The notes below the pieces were generated by a model that did not search any database, was not told the DNA's origin, and worked only from the letters and a program-made list of their open reading frames with translations. 45,667 bases of DNA from Gammaproteobacteria bacterium. GTDB lineage: Bacteria; Pseudomonadota; Gammaproteobacteria; GCA-001735895. The first letter of the stretch is position 1, and each line of letters starts with the position of its first letter. Below, in pieces: positions 19,104 to 22,856 of the stretch. The position numbers and the translations under genes were made by a program. Where the stretch lies: assembly GCA_024225395.1 (NCBI GenBank), contig JAAEMR010000022.1:1-45667 (forward strand), read 5' to 3'.

Positions 19104-19191
19104 AGGATCTCCTAGTTAAAAAAATGAATACAGAAATTTTGGGGCGGAATGTATATCATACCTTCCCTTGCTATTCAATAAACTCTGCCTA

Positions 19192-19782
19192 ATGCCTAAC
19201 CTATATCAAAAAGCTAGCTATTTAACCAGTGCTTTTGAGCTATCTCAGCTTGTTGAAGACGTCGGGCACGAAATAGCATTTGCCGGACGATCCAATGCAG
19301 GAAAGTCCACCGCTATAAATAGACTGACCAATCAAAAGAACCTTTGTAAGACCAGTAAAACACCCGGACGCACACAATTAATCAACTTTTTTGAACTCGA
19401 TGATGAGCGTAGACTGGTTGATTTACCCGGATATGGTTTTGCCAAAGTTCCGAAAAAACTGCGTCAACACTGGAATACCGTGTTATCCAGTTATTTAGTC
19501 GATCGCAAATCATTGAGCGGCCTGATCATCGTCGTTGATATACGTAGAGGTTTAACCGATCTGGACTGGGGACTTATTGAGTTAATGGATGAACAATTAC
19601 CCATTCATATTCTACTGACCAAAGCAGATAAGCTGAAAAATGATAGCAGAAAAAGAACTGTCATGAAAATTAACCGGGAATTGGGCGGCCAGGATATCAC
19701 TGTGTCTGCATTTTCGGCTTTGAGTGGATTGGGTCTTGATGAATTTGTGGGTTACTGTGATAAGTTGCTTGATGTTGGGTAG
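19192..19782 (+). CDS. engB: Ribosome-biogenesis GTPase EngB (YsxC/YihA)
   Basis: Essential GTPase for assembly of the large ribosomal subunit. G-motifs are AGRSNAGKST (G1), TPGRTQLINF (G2), DLPGYGFA (G3), LLTKADKL (G4) and a SA-like SAFSALSG (G5). The start is taken at ATG 19192 because MPNLYQKASYLTSA aligns with the E. coli N-terminus. A TTG at 19168 in the same frame adds eight residues without improving the match, and neither has an obvious ribosome binding site. The product is 196 aa. It converges on polA; the gap between them holds a small RNA on the opposite strand. Confidence 0.93.
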   Translation: MPNLYQKASYLTSAFELSQLVEDVGHEIAFAGRSNAGKSTAINRLTNQKNLCKTSKTPGRTQLINFFELDDERRLVDLPGYGFAKVPKKLRQHWNTVLSSYLVDRKSLSGLIIVVDIRRGLTDLDWGLIELMDEQLPIHILLTKADKLKNDSRKRTVMKINRELGGQDITVSAFSALSGLGLDEFVGYCDKLLDVG

Positions 19783-19935
19783 TTTCTTGTGAGCATTGCT
19801 CGCTGTTAACTATTTATTTGGAATTTATTATTGCTGGAGCAATATATCTGCACATGGCTTTACAGCATAAGCACATCTGTGGCCAGGCAGCTTTCTTGAC
19901 CATATATGGTTTCTGGGTATAAGGCATCCATGGCC

Positions 19936-19972
19936 AAAAAAAACCCTGGCAGAGACTTAACTGAGCCAGGGT
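19936..19972 (-). terminator. Strong intrinsic terminator of the small RNA
   Basis: On the minus strand, an 8-bp GC-rich stem (ACCCTGGC with GCCAGGGT; 19965-19972 and 19943-19950) closes a 14-nt loop and is followed directly by a run of T. The plus strand has no matching T-run after the hairpin, so the signal is specific for the minus-strand transcript. Confidence 0.88.
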
Positions 19973-20048
19973 CTAAACTCGATCCGGTGGGGTAACCAGA
20001 TCCATCCGTTCAACAGGAGGGAAGAACGAACTTGCGCTGGGCTTTAGC
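19936..20048 (-). ncRNA. Putative Spot 42/ErsA-position small regulatory RNA
   Basis: About 113 nt, transcribed on the polA strand between polA and engB, the locus of Spot 42 in enterics and (as I recall) ErsA in Pseudomonas. A TATAAT -10 lies at 20054-20059, with a predicted start near 20048. Four hairpins can be drawn by eye, 5' to 3': GCGCT/AGCGC (loop AAAGCCC); a 7-bp stem (20024-20030 with 20005-20011) presenting the 12-nt loop UUCCCUCCUGUU; an 8-bp stem (19995-20002 with 19981-19988) presenting UACCCC; and an intrinsic terminator. The CCCUCC loop is complementary to Shine-Dalgarno sequences. Sequence identity to Spot 42 is not evident, so homology rests on position and architecture. Confidence 0.75.
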
Positions 20049-20053
20049 GCATA

Positions 20054-20080
20054 ATTATATGACCAAACCATTTATTCAAG
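20054..20080 (-). promoter_or_regulatory. Promoter of the polA-engB small RNA
   Basis: A perfect TATAAT -10 is at 20054-20059 on the minus strand. Upstream, CTTGAA or CCTTGA at 15-16 bases is the only -35-like sequence, so the -35 is weak and an activator or alternative factor could be needed. Confidence 0.5.
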
Positions 20081-20156
20081 GTTCCTTCATATACTTTAGT
20101 TATAGTCATTTATTTATATTTTTCAGTTTTACCCGATAATCGGCACTATTTTACCT

Positions 20157-22856
20157 CTAATGTGCTTCATTCCAGCTATCCCCGACTCCTGCATCAACTT
20201 CAAGCGAAACTGATAATTCTGCAGCCGATGTCATCAGAGCAGACAATTTTTCCCGGTAATACTCTATTTCATTTTGCTTAACTTCAAACACCAGTTCATC
20301 ATGAACTTGCATAATCATTCTGGCCTGATCACCTTCACTGCTTAACCATTGATCAACCGTGATCATCGCCCGTTTGATAATATCTGCAGCTGTACCCTGC
20401 ATCGGAGCATTGATCGCTGTTCTTTCTGCATATTGTCTACGTTGTGCATTCCGTGATTTAAGTTCCGGCAGGTATAGCCTTCTACCATAAACCGTTTCCA
20501 CATAACCCATCTGATGCGCTTTTTCACGTGTTTCATCCATATAGTTTTTTACACCCGGATAACGTTCAAAATACAGGTCGACATACTTTTGTGCTTCACT
20601 TCGACCGATATTGAGTTGCTTACCCAGACCAAAGGCCGACATTCCATAAATTAATCCAAAGTTGATCGCTTTTGCGGCCCGGCGCTGTTCGGTAGAAACC
20701 AGCTCATTAGAAATAGCAAAAACTTCTGCCGCTGTTGCCCGGTGCACGTCCAGGCCCTGAGCAAAAGCTGCTAGCAGGCTTTCATCCCCGGAAAGGTGAG
20801 CCATGATACGCAATTCTATCTGAGAATAATCCAGAGCCATTATCTTATAGCCTTCAGGAGCAATGAAAGCTTCACGAATTCGCCGGCCCTGTTCAGTTCT
20901 AATCGGGATATTCTGTAAATTTGGACTGGATGAAGACAACCTTCCCGTTGATGCAACAGCCTGGTGATAGGAAGTATGAATTCTGCCCGTGTGTAAATTG
21001 ACCTGTTGTGGCAGTTTATCAATATAGGTGGTTTTAAGTTTATTCAGGCTTCTATGTTCCAACAATAACCTTGGAATATCATGATCTCTGGCCAACTCTT
21101 CCAGAACATCTTCTGCTGTTGAAGGTTGTCCCTTCGGTGTCTTACGAATAACTGGTAATTCCAGCTTTTCAAATAAGATGACCTGTATCTGTTTTGGCGA
21201 ACTCAAATTAAAGCTCTCTCCCGCCAGTTCAAAAATTGTTCCCTGAATCGTATCCAGTAAATGGTCAACTTCCTGGGCCTGCTTTTCCAACAGCCCCTGA
21301 TCAAGACAAACACCGTTTTGTTCTATGCGTGCCAGCACCGGTATCAATGGCATTTCAATATCCTGATAAACCTTGAGTAAGGATTTTTCCTGTTTCAACT
21401 GGTCAAACATTGCCTGGTGTAACTGCAAAGTGACATCAGCATCTTCACTGGCATAAGGGACTGCCATCTCCAGATCGACCTGATCAAAGCTGACCTGCTT
21501 GGCACCTTTTCCGGCTACATTTTCAAAATGGATGGTCTTTCTATTCAGGTAAAACTCGGCCAGGTCATCCATGTTGTGTCGTGTTGCCGTCGAGTTTAAA
21601 ACATAGGATTGCAACATCGTATCATGTTGAATACCTTTTAAATTGATCCCGTATTTTTTGAAAATATGATGTTCATATTTTATATTTTGGCCCACTTTAC
21701 CAATTTGGGAGTTTTCCAGAATGGGTTTAAGCGCTTCCAGAACCTTTTCCCTGTTCAATTGCTCTGGTGCGCCTGAGTAACTGTGTGTCAGCGGGATATA
21801 ACAGGCTTTGTTTGCTTCTGTGCACAGTGATAAACCTACAATTTCGGCGTCCATGTAATTAATACTGGTAGTTTCAGTATCAATTGCAAATAACTCAACC
21901 GAAGAAATTTCTTTTAGCCAACGATCAAAAGAGGCTTGTTCCAGTACCATTTCATAATCACCGACTGGAGCTTCCTCAACCTCTTCAATCTCAAAACCTT
22001 CTGATTCCAGTTCATCCAGCCAACGTTTAAATTCGAATTGCTGGTAATAATCACTCAGTGCTTTTACATCTATTTCCTGCTGGCGTAGATCTTCTATTTC
22101 AAAATCGAGCTCTACATCCCGTTTGATGGTAGCCAATTCATAAGACATGGGTAAAAAATCCAGCGATGCTCGAAGATTTTCACCGATTTTTCCTTTGAAG
22201 CTTTCAGCATTATCGATCACATTTTGTAACGTTCCATATTCATTTAGCCATTTACTGGCTGTTTTCGGTCCTACTTTAGGCACGCCTGGAATGTTATCGG
22301 AGGTATCACCCATTAATGCCAGGTAATCTATAATCTGATCCGGTTTTACCTGAAACTTTTCAACGACCATGTTTTCATCCATCAGCACATTATTCATTGT
22401 GTTAATTAAGGTCACATGTTCGTTCACCAGCTGAGCCATATCCTTATCGCCCGTGGAAACCAGTACCTGAAATCCCTGTTCTGCAGCCAGTTTGGCCAGG
22501 GTACCTATCACATCATCGGCTTCAACATTATCAACGATTACCAAAGGCAGACCTTGCGCCTTGATAATGTTATGCAAAGGTTCTATCTGCACACGTAAAT
22601 CATCCGGCATGGGTGGCCGATTGGCTTTATAGTCCTGATAGATATCATTTCTGAAGGTTTTTCCCCTGGCATCGAAGATAACGCCGATGAAATCCGGGTT
22701 TTCATCCAGCATCAATTTCCGCAACATATTTAAAACACCATAGATAGCGCCCGTGGGATGACCATTACTGATCAACGGAGGCAGGCCATGAAATGCACGA
22801 AACAGGTATGAACTGCCATCGACTAACACCAGTTTTTTTCTTTTCTCTTCTTTCAT
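20157..22856 (-). CDS. polA: DNA polymerase I
   Basis: Repair and Okazaki-fragment polymerase with all three activities. The 5' nuclease domain (about 1-290) begins KLVLVDGSSYLFRAFHGLPPL. The 3'-5' proofreading domain is active: Asp326/Glu328 in FAIDTETTS, and a later ASEDADVTLQLH. The polymerase domain has motif A with Asp676 (MALDYSQIELRI), motif B (RRAAKAINFGLIYGMS) and motif C with Asp853 (QVHDELVFE). The 899-aa length is typical. Its start is 55 bases from the divergent LOG-family gene. Downstream on the same strand follows the small RNA; whether polA has its own terminator first is unclear, since no hairpin lies in between. Confidence 0.98.
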   Translation of the reverse strand: MKEEKRKKLVLVDGSSYLFRAFHGLPPLISNGHPTGAIYGVLNMLRKLMLDENPDFIGVIFDARGKTFRNDIYQDYKANRPPMPDDLRVQIEPLHNIIKAQGLPLVIVDNVEADDVIGTLAKLAAEQGFQVLVSTGDKDMAQLVNEHVTLINTMNNVLMDENMVVEKFQVKPDQIIDYLALMGDTSDNIPGVPKVGPKTASKWLNEYGTLQNVIDNAESFKGKIGENLRASLDFLPMSYELATIKRDVELDFEIEDLRQQEIDVKALSDYYQQFEFKRWLDELESEGFEIEEVEEAPVGDYEMVLEQASFDRWLKEISSVELFAIDTETTSINYMDAEIVGLSLCTEANKACYIPLTHSYSGAPEQLNREKVLEALKPILENSQIGKVGQNIKYEHHIFKKYGINLKGIQHDTMLQSYVLNSTATRHNMDDLAEFYLNRKTIHFENVAGKGAKQVSFDQVDLEMAVPYASEDADVTLQLHQAMFDQLKQEKSLLKVYQDIEMPLIPVLARIEQNGVCLDQGLLEKQAQEVDHLLDTIQGTIFELAGESFNLSSPKQIQVILFEKLELPVIRKTPKGQPSTAEDVLEELARDHDIPRLLLEHRSLNKLKTTYIDKLPQQVNLHTGRIHTSYHQAVASTGRLSSSSPNLQNIPIRTEQGRRIREAFIAPEGYKIMALDYSQIELRIMAHLSGDESLLAAFAQGLDVHRATAAEVFAISNELVSTEQRRAAKAINFGLIYGMSAFGLGKQLNIGRSEAQKYVDLYFERYPGVKNYMDETREKAHQMGYVETVYGRRLYLPELKSRNAQRRQYAERTAINAPMQGTAADIIKRAMITVDQWLSSEGDQARMIMQVHDELVFEVKQNEIEYYREKLSALMTSAAELSVSLEVDAGVGDSWNEAH

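Follow-up and report, generated by a model that had tools for sequence, protein, structure and literature searches.

A predicted sigma-E-dependent small RNA between polA and engB, and its place among the polA-locus small RNAs of Gammaproteobacteria

Small RNAs (sRNAs) are usually described as restricted to families or genera. The sX13 RNA, encoded downstream of polA, was reported by its authors only from Xanthomonadaceae, and they raised the questions of whether sRNAs are also encoded at other polA loci and whether they function in a similar way (PMC3771888). In this study, we addressed the polA-engB gap of a Gammaproteobacteria bacterium, for which the original prediction, made from the sequence, had proposed a new sRNA at the Spot 42/ErsA position with anti-Shine-Dalgarno-like C-rich loops. 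The DNA analysed, referred to here as the window, was the full 45,667-nt contig JAAEMR010000022.1 (GCA_024225395.1).

On the comparative evidence given below, the gap holds a real and strongly conserved small RNA gene. As predicted from the fold, the alignment of relatives and a covariance model, it occupies positions 19936-20053 of the minus strand (~117 nt), with a probable 5' end at about 20053 (+/- 3), set by sigma-E spacing, and a 3' end placed at the T-run. The upstream neighbour polA (20157-22856, minus strand) lies on the same strand, its stop (20157) being 106 nt from the sRNA, and the downstream neighbour engB (yihA/ysxC; 19168-19782, plus strand) is convergent with it. The fold comprised hairpin H1 (20033-20051; loop AAAGCCC, 20045-20039), hairpin H2 (20004-20031) with the anti-Shine-Dalgarno-like loop UUCCCUCCUGUU (20023-20012), hairpin H3 (19981-20002; loop UACCCC, 19994-19989), all on the minus strand, and a terminator (19936-19971, minus strand), in which CCCTGGC (19971-19965) pairs with GCCAGGG (19950-19944) ahead of a T8 run (19943-19936). 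The four hairpins, two C-rich loops and GC-rich terminator on the minus strand of the gap were thus all as claimed. The fold energy of the RNA from 20051 to 19936 was -46 kcal/mol, compared with -29.2 +/- 2.9 kcal/mol for dinucleotide shuffles (z -5.8; 0 of 200 shuffles as good). An automated terminator scan of the window did not pick up the sRNA terminator, plain as it is in the sequence, because its loop exceeds the limit of 8 set in the scan. A 10-codon open reading frame within the sRNA (ATG near 20006) was rejected, its ATG being missing from the relatives' alignment. Separately, a short dispersed repeat seems to start at the terminator (window 19910-19945): the T-run and the sequence just past it (TTTTTGGCCATGGATGCC...) had 85-100% matches over ~20-35 nt at many other places in genomes of the same genus.

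The structure was examined by covariation. A first MAFFT alignment of 19 sequences misaligned H2 and H3, had a poor consensus at 14 pairs and was set aside in favour of a covariance model from ten clean sequences and structure-guided alignment. This model, R2, was made from ten family members from 10 other genomes with the window sequence excluded, and it recovered the window RNA with 61.3 bits (E 9.6e-12 over 170 kb). When 50 homologues were aligned to R2, 97.9% of pair cells were standard pairs and 27 of the 28 base pairs had changes on both sides (4/4 modelled pairs in H1, 8/8 in H2, 7/7 in H3 and 8/9 in the terminator). Compensatory cells numbered 282 against 63 in shuffles, and the covariation signal was gone when partners were slid by 1-3 columns. 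The alignment of 50 homologues was fitted to the structure and hence leans towards it; nevertheless, given how large the effect is and how the slid controls behaved, there is little doubt about the covarying structure. The compensatory changes, whose absence among relatives the original prediction had named as grounds for refutation, are therefore present. The stems vary freely, whereas the loops keep the conserved cores GCCC, UCCCUCC and ACCCC, the CUCC of the H2 loop being retained in 49 of 50 homologues and the CCCC of the H3 loop in 46 of 50. The proposal of an sRNA at this position with conserved C-rich loops resembling an anti-Shine-Dalgarno sequence is borne out by this alignment and by the covariation.

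Within the family, a DNA search of relatives found the sRNA in 18 other genomes, giving 19 loci with the window, and in 19/19 it is flanked by polA and engB, or adjoins engB at a contig end. With a group model, R3, the sRNA was recovered at E < 1e-10 from 31 of the 35 family genomes, although several of the 31 sequences had gone into building the model. In the alignment of the 19 loci, only the promoter was conserved in the polA-engB gap beyond the sRNA. Two further observations concern relatives. In the assembly of one of them (L274; G001:C138), a second sRNA copy adjoins a polA fragment of just 64% identity, pointing to either contig contamination or a polA of foreign origin. In another, a c-di-GMP-I riboswitch scored above threshold close to the polA-engB locus (L036; 2036-2120, minus strand).

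The promoter indicated by this conservation differs from that originally proposed. A perfect TATAAT is present on the minus strand at 20059-20054, as had been noted, but it reads TATAGT in the closest relative and is missing in others. What the 19 loci have in common 5' of the sRNA is only NGAAC as the -35 box (19/19; GGAAC at 20081-20085, minus strand, in the window) and, 17 nt on, an invariant GTC as the -10 box (19/19; 20061-20063, minus strand). This GGAAC-N17-GTC arrangement (20085-20061) is the consensus of sigma-E (RpoE; AlgU/sigma-22 in Pseudomonas). Among 82 homologous places scanned, GGAAC-N15-17-GTC stood upstream of 22 (0.1 expected) and a relaxed sigma-E motif upstream of 40 (0.7 expected), for the most part at a distance of 7-10 nt from the modelled 5' end; outside the family, not every homologue had a recognisable motif. 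A single clear RpoE (312.7 bits) is encoded in the source genome, with open frames resembling RseA and RseB after it. Given its lack of conservation in relatives, the TATAAT is probably coincidental rather than a promoter.

These data bear on two other accounts of the locus. An sRNA under growth or carbon control, with Spot 42-like action and sigma-70 transcription from the TATAAT, would fit the perfect hexamer and the polA-engB gap, which is the position of Spot 42. The promoter of Spot 42 is repressed by CRP-cAMP. We consider this account improbable for the window RNA, as the hexamer is not kept in relatives whose GGAAC-N17-GTC is (19/19), a promoter scan saw no sigma-70 pair there, a start set by the TATAAT would land inside H1, and the Spot 42 Rfam model (RF00021) matched nowhere in the window at E values up to 10. 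The other account regards the region as merely the 3' untranslated region of polA with its terminator and no independent RNA. The shared strand and the short distance past the polA stop would agree with it, but the sequence has its own conserved promoter motif and all four hairpins covary, not the terminator alone. Moreover, three loci (L047, L054 and L278) have the sRNA in the polA-engB gap but oriented against polA; the sigma-E motif is retained at L047 and for both copies of L054, and therefore the sRNA forms its own transcription unit there. An untranslated region of polA is accordingly very hard to reconcile with the data. An sRNA with its own sigma-E-type promoter is the reading followed below.

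The window RNA was then compared with named families. No Rfam family passed the gathering threshold anywhere in the window; below threshold, anti-hemB was the best, followed weakly by NsiR1, which probably matches the terminator, and ErsA. The anti-hemB model (Burkholderia RNA 7, RF02837; ncS04 of B. cenocepacia) aligned end to end with 26.3 bits (E 3.4e-4), far under its threshold of 49.5. The two RNAs have in common a CCUCC-loop hairpin of the H2 type, the next hairpin and a U-tailed terminator, and the anti-hemB model, which begins at H2, has one hairpin fewer. Several homologues of the window RNA exceed the anti-hemB threshold at polA-engB loci, whereas the neighbour in Burkholderia is presumably hemB, going by the name. 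Across the class, this model gave below-threshold matches in 168 of 369 genomes, many of them weak and most without a check of position. Anti-hemB/ncS04 itself is an expressed RNA of 105 nt and a reported Hfq binder (PMC5688073).

ErsA (Pseudomon-1, RF01719) resembles the window RNA in its polA-adjacent place (L080), in the CCC loop of its penultimate hairpin and in promoter type, with TGAACTT...GTCATA at the matching place of its locus; it is sigma-22-dependent and represses algC and oprD (PMC8395346). It differs in lacking H1 and the CCUCC hairpin and in having a longer single-stranded 5' part, and its model scored only 14.9 bits in the window (E 1.9; threshold 50). Conversely, R3 found the ErsA locus at the correct place and strand with a weak 18.6 bits, against 1.8 on the antisense. 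Like the window RNA, sX13 (RF02232) is encoded downstream of polA; it is 115 nt long and has three stable hairpins with C-rich apical loops (PMC3771888). With E allowed up to 10, the sX13 model did not match the window, but it scored 48.3 bits in L081 and 37.9 in L055 on homologues of the window RNA. For Spot 42, which like the window RNA lies between polA and yihA (engB), R3 gave just 17.3 bits, mostly from the terminator, against 10.4 on the antisense, and a tie beyond position is unproven. The alphaproteobacterial ar14 (RF02344) is weakly tied to the window RNA: its model reached sub-threshold scores on some homologues (L081, 38 bits; L042, 31.3 bits) and matched nothing in the window.

Searches with R2 placed these likenesses in a wider setting. 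In an even sample of 369 genomes across the class, R2 gave matches in 52, two of them being genomes that had contributed to the model. Outside the family, 22 of the 26 class-level loci (L033-L059 without L040) had polA, engB or both within 1.5 kb. At L279, L286 and L287 the sRNA stands beside cytochrome-c-like genes with no polA in the stretch examined, and these loci may represent the same neighbourhood seen from its engB-cytochrome c4 side. Two sRNA copies each were present in L054, L065 and L070, and L081 (1089-1841) carries four tandem copies in one polA-engB gap, each matched by a different mix of Rfam models (sX13 48.3 bits, anti-hemB 41.8, ar14 38 and ErsA 37.1). L082 and L085 were matched by the anti-hemB and ErsA models, and L055 by sX13 and anti-hemB, so that models of separately named families cross-match at polA-engB loci.

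By these model matches, the window RNA belongs, as a divergent branch, to a wide group of polA-locus sRNAs, which covariance models recover in many gammaproteobacterial families and parts of which Rfam splits into anti-hemB, ErsA/Pseudomon-1, sX13 and ar14. The idea of a positional counterpart with diverged sequence holds as to place and divergence, but the RNA is not an isolated counterpart. We regard anti-hemB, ErsA, sX13 and the window RNA as probably of common descent, or at the least as having the same architecture at the same locus. Cross-matches alone would also allow for convergence of short C-loop hairpins, which is argued against because the locus and the promoter are shared. We lean somewhat towards a single ancient, vertically inherited gene behind ErsA, sX13, anti-hemB and the window RNA, kept beside polA/engB through much of Gammaproteobacteria, ancestrally driven by sigma-E and mimicking the anti-Shine-Dalgarno tail of 16S rRNA, with the named families as its lineage forms. 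A literature search of limited range found no paper joining these families. The window RNA is ordinary in kind, yet a divergent member missed by Rfam; with its promoter reassigned to sigma-E, it helps to link several families that bear separate names. Together with its homologues, it answers the first half of the question of the sX13 authors, in that other polA loci, in many gammaproteobacterial families, do encode sRNAs. A model joining several Rfam families would carry the results on ErsA and sX13 across many genomes.

As to function, a sigma-E-dependent, trans-acting regulatory sRNA whose C-rich loops act on G-rich ribosome binding sites is the likely reading, by analogy with sX13 for the loops and with ErsA for promoter and position. 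Envelope stress would free RpoE from its anti-sigma factor RseA, and transcription by RpoE, starting at the sRNA's own promoter between polA and engB, would yield the ~117-nt RNA. This would fold into three hairpins and the terminator, and its C-rich loops, chiefly UCCCUCC (H2) and ACCCC (H3), would pair with the G-rich ribosome binding sites of a group of mRNAs, reducing how far these are translated. The source genome has an hfq gene, the sRNA ends in a U8 tail, and Hfq may take part; sX13 acts without it, its C-rich loops repressing mRNAs that bear G-rich motifs near the start codon (PMC3771888). Repression by sX13 depends on its loops as well as on a G-rich motif in the target, and swapping loop and target bases failed to restore regulation (PMC3771888); therefore direct pairing is not formally proven even for sX13. 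A different possibility is that the RNA pairs with no mRNA and instead uses its C-rich loops or U-tail as a sponge that titrates an RNA-binding protein. Rigid hairpins with repeated C-rich loops, and the tandem copies in some relatives, would suit such a sponge, but the loops are not GGA (CsrA/RsmA) sites and the sX13 requirement for a G-rich motif in the target (PMC3771888) speaks against it, and we regard it as unlikely. The alignment, promoter and loops provide the means for testing whether polA-locus sRNAs act alike.

Candidate targets were sought among genes with AGGAGGGA before the ATG in 40 family genomes, with AAGGAGAA as control. Exported-looking proteins made up 24 of 43 AGGAGGGA genes and 14 of 44 controls (p 0.02), and 19 of 35 against 14 of 38 once related genes were removed (p 0.10), an excess that is no more than suggestive. 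The canonical AAGGAGGT showed no enrichment over its own control and was not used for the target search. The two targets first put forward do not stand out. The leader of cytochrome c4 (AACTAGGAGATCCTATG) forms a predicted duplex with the H2 loop of -10.7 kcal/mol, the 6th of 75 start sites in the window, so that its ribosome binding site is a possible but not a distinctive target; among the start sites that were scored, the 166-aa membrane protein could not be identified. The recurring candidates were FHA-domain-like, substrate-binding-like and amino-acid permease-like proteins, named by eye from sequence; they come from close relatives and prove nothing. In four family genomes (L187, L191, L197 and L211), AGGAGGGA precedes the start of the gene for the FHA-domain-like protein. 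In L132 (G000:C65:10884) and L144 (G001:C232:14978), the start of a gene for an amino-acid ABC-permease-like protein, also named by eye, is preceded by TAGGAGGGA, a sequence complementary to that of the H2 loop; the gene is a candidate target.
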